64,000 nucleotides of DNA, from assembly GCF_900108305.1 (NCBI RefSeq), contig NZ_FNUX01000001.1, positions 1-64,000 of the forward strand, in the 5' to 3' direction. The notes under the pieces are model-generated. The model saw nothing but the letters and a program-made list of their open reading frames with translations, searched no databases and was not told the DNA's origin. This document shows, one piece after another, positions 3,240 through 41,049 of the stretch (its first letter is position 1; each line of letters begins with the position of its first letter). Origin of the DNA: Nitrosomonas ureae. GTDB taxonomy: Bacteria > Pseudomonadota > Gammaproteobacteria > Burkholderiales > Nitrosomonadaceae. The position numbers and the translations under genes are program-made.

Positions 3240-3898
3240 CGCAAACTGATTATCGGCCAGCCATTGCTTTCTGCGTGGCTCTTCAGTGTAGGGTCCGGAT
3301 CGACGGCAACCGGGTGCGTTACTTTACAGAGCAAGGGCAAATCATTGAGTGAATCGCTATAAAACCAGCTACGGAGAAACGATAACCAGGTCAGATTGTG
3401 CGCATCCAGCCATTTCTCCAATCGCTCAACTTTTCCTTCCCTGAATGAAGGTGTTCCAGACACCCGGCCTGTAAATTCTCCATCTTTCTCTTCCGGTTCA
3501 GTCGCGATCAAATGACTGATACCAAGCGCTTGGGCAATCGGGGTCGTGACAAAACTATTAGTGGCGGTAATAATGATACACAAATCATTGTCCAGCATAT
3601 GCCGTTCGATTAGTTGCCGCGTCCCCGGCGCAATCAGCGGTATAATTTTCTTACACATGAATTCACTGCGCCAAACTTCCAATTGGGCACGTGAATGGCG
3701 TGCCAGAGGTTTTAACTGAAAATCCAGAAATTCGTGTATATCCAGCGTTCCCGCTTTATATTGCTCATAAAACTCAATGTTCTTGGCCTCGTGCAACTCA
3801 CGATCCAACGCTTTTTTTTCTATCAAAAATTGTGCCCACTGAAAATCACTATCGCCTGCGATTAATGTGTTATCCAGATCAAATAATGCTAAATTCAT
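3236..3898 (-). CDS. HAD-IB family phosphatase (SerB-like)
   Basis: A 220-aa haloacid-dehalogenase hydrolase. Motif I is [16 protein letters not shown] at residues 3-18, with the nucleophile Asp and the acid/base Asp two residues later. Motif II is in IIITATNSF, and motif III/IV residues are in REGKVERL and [11 protein letters not shown]. By family it is a phosphomonoesterase, perhaps of phosphoserine-like or histidinol-phosphate-like substrates; the substrate cannot be read from sequence. The start at 3898 overlaps the hda stop (ATGA), implying translational coupling. An hda-HAD pair is a common betaproteobacterial arrangement. Confidence 0.88.
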
Positions 3899-33396: not shown

Positions 33397-33837
33397 TCAA
33401 TTAAGCCAAATGATAGCTACAGCGAGATGGATGCCGCCGAGGAAAGTTGAAGCACGTTTATCGTACCGAGTTGCAATGGCACGGTATTGCTTGAGTTTTG
33501 CAAAGAAATTTTCGATCAAATGCCGTGCTTTATACATTTCCTCATCGTATTCGCGTGGTTCCTTACGGTTTGACTTTGGTGGTATGACGGCCCGAACCCC
33601 GGCGTTCTTTAACAGATCAAGAACCCGTTCCGCCGCATCATACGCTTTATCGGCCAGAAAAGATTCTATACACGTCAGAATGTCCGGCAATAAAACATCC
33701 GTACCTTGAAGATCATGGGCTTGCCCCGGTGTAAGATGAAAACCGGTCGGGTTGCCAAGAGCATCACAGGTTACGTGTATTTTTGTGCTCAGTCCGCCTT
33801 TGCTGCGCCCAATGCACTCCGTTTCCCTGTTCCCCCT
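33397..33837 (-). CDS. IS5-family transposase, C-terminal frame (OrfB)
   Basis: Read in the -1 frame from the A/G run at 33832-33840, the sequence continues without a stop to 33397: GRSKGGLSTKIHVTCDALGN, the second catalytic Asp in FLADKAYDAAERVL and the catalytic Glu in ARHLIENFFAKLKQYR. No good independent start with a ribosome-binding site is seen, so it is probably expressed as the OrfAB fusion. A simple inactivating indel in the G-run is the alternative. Confidence 0.82.
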   Translation of the reverse strand, partial: RGNRETECIGRSKGGLSTKIHVTCDALGNPTGFHLTPGQAHDLQGTDVLLPDILTCIESFLADKAYDAAERVLDLLKNAGVRAVIPPKSNRKEPREYDEEMYKARHLIENFFAKLKQYRAIATRYDKRASTFLGGIHLAVAIIWLN

Positions 33838-34163
33838 TTTGCCCCGGCAGCATGCTGATGTGCGCGGATGATTGTACTATCGATCATCGCATACTCATTA
33901 TCAGCATCTTTGGCCAAATACGTGAAAACCCTTTCCCATACGCCGCTTTCCGACCAGCGGCGATGACGGCGGGCTATGTTGTTCCAATCTCCAAAACGCT
34001 CCGGCAGATCACGCCATGGTATCCCAGCACGGTAGCGGTACAAAACAGCTTCAACAAATAGCCTGTTATCCTTGGCTGTTACACCAACTGTTTGCTTGCG
34101 GCCCGGTAACAAGTGCTCGATCCGTTGCCATTGATCGTCCCGTAATCCATAGCGCTTCACCAT
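33789..34163 (-). CDS. IS5-family transposase, N-terminal frame (OrfA)
   Basis: A 124-aa product with the IS5-type N-terminal helical domain (RYGLRDDQWQRIEHLLPGR, then VEAVLYRYRAGIPWRDLPER). It ends shortly after the first catalytic Asp in MIDSTIIRAHQH. Near the end the message reads GCA AAA GGG GGA, a slippery run where a -1 shift joins it to OrfB. The last residues after AGAKGG are therefore probably only made when ribosomes do not shift. Confidence 0.87.
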   Translation of the reverse strand: MVKRYGLRDDQWQRIEHLLPGRKQTVGVTAKDNRLFVEAVLYRYRAGIPWRDLPERFGDWNNIARRHRRWSESGVWERVFTYLAKDADNEYAMIDSTIIRAHQHAAGAKGGTGKRSALGAAKAD

Positions 34164-36251: not shown

Positions 36252-38108
36252 ATGTTCGGCTTCTTCGAGCGCCTGATCAATCCTTACCCTCCGGAACACC
36301 CTATTGAACCACCGCAGGGGTTGTACCAGTTTTGCCGCCATTACACTCAGGGTATCGAGCCTTATCTTATATTGCTAGCAATTCTGACTACCTGCCTTGC
36401 GATCAGCGAAGCCATGCTCTACAGCGTTCTAGGGCAAATGGTCGATTGGCTGGCGGAAAAGAGAACGGGAAGCTTTCTGGAAGAAGAATGGCCAACCTTG
36501 CTCGGCATGTCGGTTTTCATACTGATAGTAATACCGTTATTGGTATTGTTACATTCATTGGTCATCCACCAAACATTGATGGGCAATTTTCCCATGCGTG
36601 TGCGCTGGATGTCGCACCGTTATCTGCTGAATCAAAGCTATGCATTTTTTCAGCACGAATTCAGCGGCCGCATCGCTACCAAAGTCATGCAAACCGCATT
36701 ATCCGTCCGTGAAACAGTACTCAAGCTGATTGATGTCATGCTGTTTGTCTCGGTTTACTTGACCACCACCTTATTCCTGGTTATCAATGCAGATCCGGTT
36801 TTATGTTTACCATTGCTGGTGTGGCTTGTTTTATATATTGTTATTCTGTCCTATTTTGTTCCTCGATTGAAACGTATATCCACCTTGCAAGCCGACGCGC
36901 GCGCGCTCATGACCGGACGTATTGTTGACAGCTACACCAACATACTGACATTGAAGCTGTTTTCACGGAGCCAACGGGAATCGGCATACGCTCAGGCAGG
37001 CATGGAAGAATTCATGGCAACCGTACACCCCCAAATGCGCTTATCGACAGGTCTAAATTTCTGTGTTTGGGTTATCAATATGATGATGGTATTCACAACC
37101 GGTGCATTAGGTTTAACAATCTGGTTACAGGGTGATATCGGGCCAGGCGCCATAGCCATCGTCATGAGTCTCGCTATTCGACTAACCGGCATGTCACATT
37201 GGATTATGTGGGAAGTCAACACGCTATTCGAGAACATGGGTGCCGTCCAAGATGGTATCAACACGATTTCCAGACCACAACTTGTCACTGATATACCCAA
37301 TGCCATGGAATTACAGGTGCATCAAGGCACCATTCATTTCAGTCATGTTTCCTTTTCCTATCACTCTGAACATCAAGAATCCATGAACATTTTCGATGAT
37401 CTCAGCTTGCACATTGCAGCCGGTGAGAAAGTAGGCATTGTGGGTCGATCAGGTTCTGGTAAATCGACCTTCGTTAATTTGCTATTGCGATTCTACGATG
37501 TTCAACGTGGCAACGTCACCATCGACAAACAGGATATCCGCACAGTAACACAGGATAGCCTGCGAGCTAATATTGCCATGGTGACTCAGGATACTTCCCT
37601 ACTGCATCGATCGGTACGTGACAATATTTTGTTTGGCAGGCCGGATGCTACCGAAGAACAAATGATTACAGCCGCTAAACAAGCTCAGGCGCACGAATTT
37701 ATTCAATCACTGAGAGATATCAGAAACCGGACGGGTTATGACGCCCATGTCGGTGAACGTGGCATCACGCTATCTGGCGGTCAGCGACAACGCATCGCCA
37801 TCGCTCGCGTACTGTTAAAAAATGCACCTATTTTGGTACTCGACGAAGCTACTTCCGCACTGGATTCCGAAGTCGAGGCCAGCATTCAGCAAAGCCTCTA
37901 TCAACTGATGGAAGGAAAAACGGTGATCGCGATCGCGCACCGGCTCTCAACGATTGCTGCAATGGATCGACTCATTGTCTTTGATAAAGGCCGCATCGTT
38001 GAACAAGGCAGTCACGCCAGACTCATTGCCAACAATCAACTTTATGCGCAATTATGGAATCATCAGTCAGGTGGATTCCTCGGATTACTGGAAGATGATC
38101 TACCTTAG
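36252..38108 (+). CDS. ABC exporter, fused membrane and ATPase domains
   Basis: A 618-aa half-transporter of the MsbA/ATM type. Six membrane helices span about 40-330. The nucleotide-binding domain (about 350-600) has Walker A GRSGSGKS, the signature LSGGQRQRIAIARVLL, Walker B ILVLDEATSALDSE and the switch His in AIAHRLSTI. It works as a dimer and should export a lipid, peptide or drug; the substrate is not evident. It is tightly linked to the TraB-family gene, so they probably share one mRNA. Confidence 0.92.
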   Translation: MFGFFERLINPYPPEHPIEPPQGLYQFCRHYTQGIEPYLILLAILTTCLAISEAMLYSVLGQMVDWLAEKRTGSFLEEEWPTLLGMSVFILIVIPLLVLLHSLVIHQTLMGNFPMRVRWMSHRYLLNQSYAFFQHEFSGRIATKVMQTALSVRETVLKLIDVMLFVSVYLTTTLFLVINADPVLCLPLLVWLVLYIVILSYFVPRLKRISTLQADARALMTGRIVDSYTNILTLKLFSRSQRESAYAQAGMEEFMATVHPQMRLSTGLNFCVWVINMMMVFTTGALGLTIWLQGDIGPGAIAIVMSLAIRLTGMSHWIMWEVNTLFENMGAVQDGINTISRPQLVTDIPNAMELQVHQGTIHFSHVSFSYHSEHQESMNIFDDLSLHIAAGEKVGIVGRSGSGKSTFVNLLLRFYDVQRGNVTIDKQDIRTVTQDSLRANIAMVTQDTSLLHRSVRDNILFGRPDATEEQMITAAKQAQAHEFIQSLRDIRNRTGYDAHVGERGITLSGGQRQRIAIARVLLKNAPILVLDEATSALDSEVEASIQQSLYQLMEGKTVIAIAHRLSTIAAMDRLIVFDKGRIVEQGSHARLIANNQLYAQLWNHQSGGFLGLLEDDLP

Positions 38109-38223
38109 CTCAATCGATATCAAATACAATCCGCATAACTGTATTAAATTGTACTCTTGATGCTACGATTTGCTTATGTATATGCCTGCAAACGTCGAGT
38201 GTAGAATAATTCGCTTGAGTGTA

Positions 38224-38997
38224 TCAGGAACCTAGAATCACCTGACGCTTCCGTAGATCATCCAACACTTCCATTCCGCCGCGGATAACGATATCGGGTT
38301 GCACATGATTCAGCTCAATGGCTATTTGTTGCAGCAATATCCGTACAGATTTATGCTCATTGCTGCTGATCAACTGCAACAAACGTGCTGTCACTAAGTT
38401 AATTTCCATGAAATGTACCTCAAAACCGGCATCTCGATAAACAATCAAATGTGTTTGCATTGCTCCGGGTACATGGGGTTGAAAATCCGGATTGATTTTG
38501 TGCACCGGAAAGTGATAATTCAATGGCCAGGCTAACGGAGAAATCGCCGGAATGGCATCAAGAAATTCGCTTTCTGGAATTGTTTTTTCTTCTCCTGCCT
38601 GTTCATCCAATATTGAAAGCGCTAATTCAACCCACTCATAATGAGCCAATTCCAGAATGAAGGGTGGGTCGTCTGGCTGCGCCATGCGTTCCTGTTCCAG
38701 GTATTTAAGAAATTCTCGCGGCATCTCCGGAAACAATGGCGTATGCGACAAGTGATTGGCGAAATAATCCCGGATCATTGCATGCCATTGTTTATCCGGA
38801 ATGATTTGACGTAATACCGGGAAGCTGTTGGCGATAAAACTCTCTACGTTGTTATAGAACAGTTCACAGTATATTTTCATGCGCCGTTCTTCGACTGCTT
38901 CAGGGCACGGATTGCTTTCCGGATTGCGGATATGCGCCGCAAAAACGTATTGCTGCCGCATAAACTCAGGATAATCAACCGTGTTGTAGATAGTCAC
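38224..38997 (-). CDS. bufC: BufC/HvfC-type DUF2063 partner protein
   Basis: A protein of about 257 aa. The N-terminal DUF2063 domain (about 15-105) has the family pattern [29 protein letters not shown] and [20 protein letters not shown] in parts, followed by a C-terminal domain to the end. In bufferin/Hvf systems this protein partners the MNIO enzyme and helps present the precursor peptide. The start is uncertain: a GTG at 38997 overlaps bufB by 23 bp, and an ATG at 38961 lies 13 bp after the bufB stop. It is the last gene of the bufA-bufB-bufC run. Confidence 0.85.
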
Positions 38998-39832
38998 TGG
39001 ATCGCGCCGACCATTTTGACTGTAATGAGTGGATAATATCCACTTCTTGCAACAATTCTGCCAGCGGTGGCAGATTAAAATCCCGCTCCAGCAAAGTAGG
39101 AATGACGCCAAAATGCTGATAGGCTTTCTCGAGTAACCGCCAGACCGGATCGATCACATCCGCGCCATGCGTATCGACAATCAGGTCTTCCGCCTCCTGA
39201 TAATGCCCGGCAACATGAATATAACGGATGCGCTCAGTTGGTAATGCCCGCAAAAACGCTTCGGCATCGTAACGATGATTGATGCTATTGACATAAATAT
39301 TATTCACATCAAGCAATAGATCGCAATCGGCCTCCTGCAGCACGGCATTCAAGAAATCAATCTCTTCCATCCGTTTACCGGGCGCCGCGTAGTAGGAAAC
39401 ATTTTCCACTGCAATGCGCTGCTCAAGAATGTTTTGTACATAACGGATACGGCCCGCTACATAATGCACCGCTTCCTCGGTAAAAGGTATCGGCATCAAA
39501 TCATACAGATGCCCGTCGTCACTACAATAACTAAGATGTTCGCTGTAATAACGGATACGGTGCTCTTTAAAGAATCTTTTCAAACGCTGCAGAAAAGCTT
39601 CATCCAATGGTAACGGCCCACCGATTGAAAGTGATAATCCATGGCAGATAAAAGGAAATTTCTCAGTCAGTTCGTGCAGCTTCTTCCCGTAGCGTCCGCC
39701 GACACTTATCCAATTTTCTGGCGCAACCTCCCAGAAATCCACCTGATGTGGAGTTTGATCTGCCAGCGAATCTGTCATCGATCGCCGCAGACCAAGACCT
39801 ACGCCATGAACAGGATAAAGATTTCCGCTCAT
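38975..39832 (-). CDS. bufB: MNIO (DUF692) peptide-modifying iron oxygenase
   Basis: A 285-aa TIM-barrel multinuclear non-heme iron oxygenase. The candidate metal ligands lie in [60 protein letters not shown] and [11 protein letters not shown], in the usual family order. Members modify cysteines in small precursor peptides; HvfB/BufB convert Cys in EGKCG motifs to a heterocycle-thioamide that binds copper. It starts 10 bp after the stop of bufA, which has two such motifs, and the partner bufC follows. Function as BufB is inferred from this context. Confidence 0.92.
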
Positions 39833-39842
39833 GGATTCAACT

Positions 39843-40157
39843 TCACTTACCTTCTTGCTCAGCTTTCTTATCGCCGTCTTTACCTTCCGTATCTTGCTTC
39901 ATTTCTTTCTTGCTGCCACATTTACCTTCGCCACACTTTCCCTCCATATCCTTTTTCATTTCACCCTTGCTGTCAGCCTTTCCTTCTTGCCCAGCTTTCT
40001 TTGCACTGTCTCCATATGCCAGCATATAACCACTGGAAAGCTCACTTATTGCGAACGGATTAGCATGCGTCTCAGCAGTCAGGTTGGTTGTTGCCAAACT
40101 GGTGACTAATGCTGCACCTAAAGCAATTGAAACAGGTTTAATGATTTTTTTAGACAT
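39843..40157 (-). CDS. bufA: Bufferin/HvfA-type RiPP precursor with two EGKCG motifs
   Basis: A 104-aa small exported protein. A signal peptide (about 1-29; [19 protein letters not shown]) is followed by a low-complexity Lys/Glu/Gly-rich mature part. Two adjacent motifs [10 protein letters not shown] (residues 72-81) hold C75 and C80, the only cysteines. Such motifs are the sites changed by MNIO enzymes in HvfA/bufferins. The start at 40157 has GAGGAG 7 nt upstream. Known relatives often carry more EGKCG copies, so this is a minimal version with a long charged tail. Copper binding in the periplasm is the expected role. Confidence 0.85.
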
Positions 40158-40209
40158 TGTTTTCTCCTCATAAAAAGACAAATAAGATTGGATCATAATA
40201 ATAACCGCA

Positions 40210-40224
40210 AATTGTTAAACAATT
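40210..40224. promoter_or_regulatory. 15-bp perfect dyad between divergent genes
   Basis: AATTGTT-A-AACAATT is a perfect dyad in the 166-bp gap between bufA (minus) and the membrane-anchored unknown (plus). It lies about 53 bp before the bufA start, near where a -35 region could fall. No T-run follows on either side that would make it a terminator. It is a candidate operator for one or both genes. Confidence 0.4.
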
Positions 40225-40323
40225 GCTGATTTCTTTGTTGCTTTTTTTGCTTGCGGCTCTCTGTTAAACTCAGCGCTTCAATAAATACTATAAGAATATG
40301 CTTGACAATCTAAGGAGATTTGA

Positions 40324-41049
40324 ATGTTTAACAAACCCAACCAGATGATTTTTTACATCAATGTATTGATCATTGTTTTTGGTGCGTTGGTTGCACTGTT
40401 TACCCCATTTTTCGTTGTTGGATTAATTTTTGCGCTTTGTGCAGCGCTGCTAATTTTTGATCAATTCAGACAAAACAAATCTGCTTTTACCATTTCAGAT
40501 TTAAAAAAAATATTAACTGTTCATGATGATGGCGGCAATAAAGCAACATTGACACAAACCCAAAAGACAACCGCATGTCATGTCGACAATTCAGAATACT
40601 GGTTTAAAAATATCCGCGCCATTGGGAGTATCAGTCATTTCAGAATCAACGATGAACAACCGGATAACCAACAAAAAGAAAACGGGAACTATCATGTATG
40701 CATGAGAATTCCACCCGAATTGAAATTAATCAATGGCTCCGATCTGACACTAATCTGCGAATATCAAGATGCTTTTACACAAAGCGAGGGTACGCTTTCG
40801 CATGTGATTGATGATGACACACAACATCTGCACATGACAGTACAACTGCCTGAAGGTCGCGCAGTTTCTACTGCCCGTTTTTTCTGTAAGCATGATGGCA
40901 AAGAGGAAGCTTTATTGCCTCCGGTTATAACGGGGCAAACAAAAATTGCAGCTGACGTTAAGAACCCTAAATTGGGCACGGAATACTGCTTACAATGGAA
41001 TTGGGCCGAACCCGGTTTGTTAAAGAAATTAGGCGGTTTTTTTAAATAG
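40324..41049 (+). CDS. Membrane-anchored protein, unknown
   Basis: A 241-aa protein with two N-terminal membrane helices (about 8-26 and 28-46) and a soluble beta-rich domain (about 60-241). It has several cysteines (for example in TTACHVDNSEYWF, ICEYQDAF, FFCKHDGKEE, EYCLQWNWAEPG). I recognise no family. The start has AAGGAGAT 5 nt upstream, a strong site. It is divergent from the bufABC run across a dyad, which may mean shared regulation but does not prove shared function. Confidence 0.65.
   Translation: MFNKPNQMIFYINVLIIVFGALVALFTPFFVVGLIFALCAALLIFDQFRQNKSAFTISDLKKILTVHDDGGNKATLTQTQKTTACHVDNSEYWFKNIRAIGSISHFRINDEQPDNQQKENGNYHVCMRIPPELKLINGSDLTLICEYQDAFTQSEGTLSHVIDDDTQHLHMTVQLPEGRAVSTARFFCKHDGKEEALLPPVITGQTKIAADVKNPKLGTEYCLQWNWAEPGLLKKLGGFFK

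Follow-up and report, generated by a model that had tools for sequence, protein, structure and literature searches.

The closest described systems to the locus analyzed here are the hvfABC cluster of Haemophilus, which yields oxazolin, and the fonABC cluster of Fontimonas, which yields fontiphorin, one of the captophorins of the Lys-Cys group. In the sections of Gadgil et al. (PMC12668002) used here, a 5-thiooxazole is assigned to fontiphorin, oxazolin, and gonophorin, and fontiphorin loses 4 Da per Cys; the corresponding sections of Manley et al. (PMC13419390) agree on the 5-thiooxazole for oxazolin. The heterocycle-thioamide product expected in the preliminary description of this DNA is thereby superseded for the EGKCG/oxazolin branch, for which these two papers now give one 5-thiooxazole per Cys and not an oxazolone-thioamide. 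Gadgil et al. also report that, in vitro, a shortened FonA was a substrate for FonBC when it had two EGKCG repeats but remained unmodified when it had a single one.

The DNA considered here, hereafter the window, is a stretch of 64,000 nucleotides from Nitrosomonas ureae (contig NZ_FNUX01000001.1, positions 1 to 64,000). Its locus shares with hvfABC the A-B-C gene order, the EGKCG motifs, and an MNIO with a DUF2063 partner, and it exceeds the family cut-offs for HvfB and HvfC. However, the Haemophilus precursor has six sites against two in the window, whose precursor lies below the HvfA cut-off and whose locus has no adjacent gene for a DoxX-like protein (HvfX). With fonABC, the window shares the minimal three-gene cluster, the EGKCG repeats, and residues of BufB that are characteristic of FonB; FonA itself has seven sites, whereas the shortened two-repeat FonA used in vitro resembles the natural precursor of the window. 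The Buf_EGKCG/oxazolin family, as outlined in the part of Antoine et al. (2025, PMC12452194) used here, has the same signal-peptide-like N-terminus, EGKCG pairs, and MNIO and DUF2063 genes; unlike that family, the window has one pair only, followed by a Cys-free tail. The Buf1 and Buf2 bufferins share the gene order, the DUF2063 partner, and the proposed role in copper handling, but their precursors belong to another family.

Layout and family of the locus

The three genes occupy positions 38224–40157 of the window, arranged head to tail on its minus strand, and the coordinates confirm that they adjoin and run in one direction. The precursor gene bufA (40157–39843) starts with ATG and encodes 104 amino acids. 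It is followed after 10 bases by bufB (39832–38975), which also starts with ATG and encodes an MNIO maturase of the HvfB family with 285 amino acids. The third gene, bufC (38997–38224), starts with GTG, overlaps bufB by 23 nt, and encodes a DUF2063/NGO1945_C partner protein (HvfC family, PME1) of 257 amino acids. A TTG start of the bufC reading frame at 39111 is improbable; the alignments to many relatives begin at residue 1 of the protein read from GTG.

The N-terminus of BufA, read directly by eye, consists of MSKK followed by a hydrophobic stretch and is signal-peptide-like. As described previously, C75 and C80 are the only Cys of the precursor. They lie in the tandem EGKCG pair of residues 72–81 (39944–39915, minus strand) and are the predicted modification sites. 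The pair is followed by a C-terminal tail of 23 residues rich in Lys, Glu, and Gly. Rfam gave no match within 37900–40500. Elsewhere in the window, a 124-residue reading frame at 33789–34163 (minus strand) looks like a fragment of an insertion sequence, presumably of its transposase.

In a search of the genome (3,186,494 bases, 74 contigs), a single MNIO, a single DUF2063 protein, and a single precursor of this type were found; a second copy of any of the three was sought genome-wide and not found. Across the 3.19 Mb of the genome, the DNA pattern of the tandem motif matches exactly once. The profile matches of BufB and BufC, together with this single match, indicate that the locus is more than a chance arrangement. 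A DoxX gene, common in clusters of this kind, does not adjoin it, which counts against an HvfABC-type locus; two DoxX genes are on other contigs.

The assignment of the enzymes as an MNIO (DUF692) with a DUF2063 partner was upheld by the profile scores. BufB matches PF05114 with 361.7 bits and exceeds the cut-off of the HvfB equivalog NF003818 (455.4 bits, cut-off 360), whereas it remains below that of the NCBIfam bufferin maturase (276.3 bits, cut-off 310). BufC matches PF09836 and PF22106 with 85.3 and 102.2 bits, respectively, and exceeds the cut-off of the HvfC equivalog NF050145 (307.6 bits, cut-off 142). The solved structures that match best by sequence are PDB 3bww, a DUF692 protein, for BufB (271.7 bits) and PDB 3dee for BufC (43.8 bits); the former is named as the MNIO of Histophilus somni in PMC13419390 and the latter as the gonococcal partner protein in PMC12668002, in the sections used.

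When BufB was aligned through 3bww, with the correspondence of numbering established by hand, N177, D220, and H222 aligned with N175, D242, and H244 of HvfB, the mutation of which abolishes activity (PMC13419390). Among the ungapped rows of the 47-row alignment, these residues are conserved in 47/47, 45/45, and 45/45 rows, respectively. R16/R17 and D251/F252 of BufB correspond to the Arg pair and to the catalytic Asp and Phe described for the Lys-Cys MNIOs (PMC12668002). R16 is present in all 47 rows and R17 in 44, with Lys in the other three, and D251 and F252 are found in 44/44 and 43/44 ungapped rows.

The placement of the precursor is less direct. BufA reaches 30.1 bits against the HvfA equivalog NF050188 (cut-off 95) and 16 bits against NF050137, KCGExKCG_twice (cut-off 19.5). 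Since BufA lies below both cut-offs, a family search on this 104-residue protein alone formally places it outside HvfA, the outcome that had been named in advance as a refutation. The cut-off of 95 was reached by none of the ten precursors tested, that of the window included, and NF050137 was passed by all nine same-genus precursors tested, four of which are two-site. Thus, four of the five two-site precursors tested pass the curated NCBI model KCGExKCG_twice, which misses at least the most eroded member, that of the window. Directly upstream of bufB stands a precursor gene with repeated EGKCG motifs, as EGKCG/oxazolin loci require, and gene order, partner proteins, and relatives assign BufA to the EGKCG/oxazolin (Lys-Cys "captophorin") group. 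Of the earlier label of a bufferin/Hvf-type locus, the part that stands is therefore an HvfABC-like, bufferin-like MNIO system with a DUF2063 partner, on account of BufB, BufC, and the relatives of BufA. The part that does not is a DUF2282 (Buf1) bufferin, as BufA has no Pfam match at E values up to 1, and hence no DUF2282.

That the locus encodes a strictly defined bufferin, Buf1 or Buf2, is extremely improbable, and this membership was rejected. The gene order and the type of partner protein are shared, but DUF2282 is not matched, the bufferin-maturase score of BufB falls short while its HvfB score does not, and the two Cys in EGKCG motifs differ from the four of Buf1 and the six or twelve of Buf2 reported in the part of PMC12452194 used here. 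By inspection, the six-Cys pattern of Buf2 is absent from BufA.

The region upstream of bufA (40158–40226, minus strand) was compared by eye among 38 upstream sequences. It contains a ribosome-binding site, a TATTAT box resembling a −10 element (40203–40198), and, just upstream of this box, the near-palindrome AATTGTTTAACAATT (40224–40210). A TTATNAT box recurs at a similar distance in many of the 38 rows. In the relative L034, changes in both halves preserve the half-site symmetry at one position, but at another the symmetry is lost; the near-palindrome could be an operator. A scan for consensus promoters and terminators gave 6 against a shuffled mean of 5.4 and 1 against 2.0, respectively, and did not pick up these elements. 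Further upstream, a 241-residue reading frame with no Pfam match lies on the plus strand (40324–41049). Its relatives occur in 26 of the 38 clade stretches, close to bufA and also to murJ in stretches long enough to include it, and none is present in the fetched stretch of the other 12, including the two-site clade of six rows.

Number of sites across the Nitrosomonas clade

The number of sites per precursor was counted in 38 hand-picked rows of the Nitrosomonas clade, with one row for each duplicated locus. The set includes L039, L040, and L060, which are titled Proteobacteria bacterium, L060 being the same contig as L022, from a same-genus genome, by length and sequence. The truncated rows L027, L028, L047, and L060 were retained though under half filled, and the long rows L020 and L078 have an uncertain placement in the tree. 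A fragment without the locus (G014), L026, the second MNIO of G015, and L029–L031 were left out. Nine gammaproteobacterial loci, all with five or more sites, served as the outgroup that roots the tree, and other gammaproteobacterial loci were kept out of it.

Two same-genus genomes carry an MNIO that shares about 61% identity with BufB (L026 and G015:C5:37530-38330). In G015, it is additional to the main MNIO. In L026, a reading frame at 3247–3639 (plus strand) contains, by eye, EGKCG-like motifs and EF-hand-like repeats and resembles the published EGKC/EF-hand type.

The count of EGKCG copies that had been proposed as a check was carried out, and it gave 2 to 11 sites: 13 rows have two, 14 have five, seven have six, two have seven, and one each has 10 and 11. 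No row among the 38 has one, three, or four. The two-site rows comprise four in the window's clade, six in a second clade, and three that stand singly (L037, L017, and L023). On the tree of BufB and BufC, six changes between two and more sites are counted, at least five of which are forced by the starred branches; the count is a parsimony count on the tree of one gene pair, in which some rows are weakly placed. Monophyly of the 13 two-site rows is rejected (p-AU 2.6e-5). As read from this tree, the two-site form is derived and has arisen via repeated contraction. The precursor of the window had been regarded as a minimal form; with two sites in 13 of the 38 clade loci, reached by repeated contraction, it is neither primitive nor unique. 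The suggestion that it could help to establish the required number of sites is reasonable and gains strength from this analysis.

Loss of the downstream cysteine codons

The tail of bufA, residues 82–104 and the stop codon (39843–39914, minus strand), is an eroded stretch in which relatives still have Cys, as seen in a codon comparison with L003, L034, L032, L033, L035, and L036. Where the five-site relatives have their third Cys codon, the window has GAC (D94), and where they have the fourth, it has the stop codon TGA. The fourth Cys codon is TAA in L034. In L032 and L033, it is TCC (Ser) and the fifth is TGA, behind which the former C-terminus persists in frame as a remnant (DSKK or DSKN, then a stop). 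The difference among TGA, TAA, and Ser with TGA indicates that the mutations that removed the downstream pair differed from lineage to lineage. The third site, by contrast, reads GAC in all four rows of the window's clade and may represent a single loss. L037 looks like a clean block contraction.

A five-site row, L003, nests inside the window's clade, and its placement outside is rejected (p 3.0e-7). Compared with L032, its flanks are 95–99% identical, whereas the tail and the 60 bases that follow are 85.7% identical; the tail of the window is 90.8% identical to that of L003. Over the 24 tail codons, L003 agrees with its own clade at 59–63 of 72 positions and with distant five- or six-site rows at 56–64 of 72. 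Because its tail is no closer to its own clade than to distant rows, regain and retention are both possible. If the tail was regained by recombination, the history would comprise about five contractions and one regain; if it was retained while the neighbors lost their Cys codons in parallel, the contractions would be more numerous.

Conservation of the pair and the proposed role of the product

The tandem pair has the same ten residues in all 13 two-site rows, which comprise 11 DNA haplotypes with synonymous differences only. The dN/dS values of bufB and bufC (NG86) are 0.040–0.218 in seven two-site pairs and 0.068–0.216 in eight many-site pairs, one of them without bufC; in the more distant pairs, dS is above 1 and near saturation. 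These low values in the two-site lineages indicate that the enzymes do not look as if they are decaying. A decay of the pathway in this lineage, with the short precursor as a step to its loss, is accordingly very unlikely. It would fit the scores of BufA under the family cut-offs and the lack of an MNIO match in 9 of 36 other same-genus genomes, some of which are incomplete. However, bufB and bufC are intact and evolve with dN/dS as low as in the many-site lineages, the catalytic residues are kept, and the two-site clade of six persists over several genomes.

The repeated loss of sites can also be explained by neutral drift in repeat number, in which 3' sites are easily lost through stops or slippage and the first pair survives because it is 5'. 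Because a stop codon readily removes the sites 3' of it, it is in part to be expected that the 5' pair persists. The stops at the fourth or fifth Cys codon in the window, L034, L032, and L033, the block contraction in L037, and the range of 2 to 11 repeats in the clade all fit this explanation, as does the fact that some relatives elsewhere manage without a tandem pair. However, stops alone leave unexplained both the change of the third Cys to Asp in the window's clade and the Cys-free tails that are still translated in the clade of six, L017, and L023. The complete lack of one-, three-, or four-site rows and the purely synonymous changes within the pair also speak against drift, which we regard as possible and entertain tentatively.

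The relatives without a tandem pair were found in two wider sets. In a nearer set, xxKCGxxKC is missing in 4 of 92 candidate rows (L079, a spurious reading frame, and L087, L092, and L103). The class-wide sample comprised 369 genomes, 119 of which had a match at 1e-70. Of 122 places, 12 were left out, namely the 11 weakest (E 4.1e-99 and weaker) and a match at a contig edge (G148). Among the 108 loci examined, 83 had a reading frame with two or more motifs, and the 25 without one were not counted. The site counts in this sample are rough because the search was loose, some reading frames lying at least 500 bases from bufB or lacking an N-terminus. Seven of the 83 candidate precursors are without a CGxxxC pair; two of these seven, L212 and L217, contain no more than two EGKCG motifs, which stand apart from each other. 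A tandem pair as a universal floor is thus unsupported by the class-wide sample. In the same sample, L162 and L196 have, upstream of bufB and beside an HvfB-like MNIO, candidate precursors with KCGTFC or KCGNIC in place of EGKCG, and the candidates upstream of bufB in L219, L221, and L222 combine multiple EGxCAGM-like motifs with one EGRCGEGKCG pair close to the C-terminus.

It is probable that the window carries an HvfABC-type (EGKCG/oxazolin, Lys-Cys captophorin) RiPP locus whose two-site product binds copper, has been contracted from an ancestor with five or more sites, and keeps its pair by selection. The chemistry, the order of the steps, export, and copper buffering are modeled on the studied relatives. 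BufC would assist BufB in acting on the BufA precursor, and BufB, as a multinuclear non-haem iron oxidase, would convert C75 and C80 into 5-thiooxazoles with an expected mass loss of 4 Da per Cys, or 8 Da in total. The product would be exported by Sec and bind periplasmic copper, so that copper stress is damped; most likely, it is a small copper-buffering peptide. The precursor would have reached its present form by losing the downstream Cys codons of the longer ancestor, while selection would retain the intact tandem EGKCG pair. A product that binds another metal, or that serves redox or oxidative-stress defense, is unlikely. None of the seven neighboring proteins scanned matches a copper family, and some MNIO clusters are linked to other metals and redox functions in the part of PMC12452194 used here, but the EGKCG products studied so far bind copper according to PMC12668002 and PMC13419390.

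In view of what FonBC modified in vitro, the two-site Nitrosomonas precursors may be natural minimal substrates. The FonBC result agrees with one pair being the smallest useful unit and is no proof of this for the BufB of the window. A wider reading for Nitrosomonas is about five independent reductions of a many-site thiooxazole metallophore precursor to one pair, with the maturation enzymes under selection and the pair as the irreducible unit, at the level of the genus, for processing and copper binding. This reading is quite possible, if short of probable.

The observation of the locus is sound and the locus is of a known kind; its point of interest is the repeated contraction in Nitrosomonas. 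In a limited collection of literature, no paper was found that treats Nitrosomonas together with DUF692, MNIO, bufferins, captophorins, oxazolin, or copper and DUF2063, and none on this contraction. If the wider reading is true, the two-site species would amount to an experiment by nature on the number of sites. A set of related species with 2, 5, 6, 7, 10, and 11 sites and closely related enzymes would offer natural substrates for testing how many EGKCG sites an MNIO needs, and the same set bears on copper binding by a single peptide as against a network of sites.
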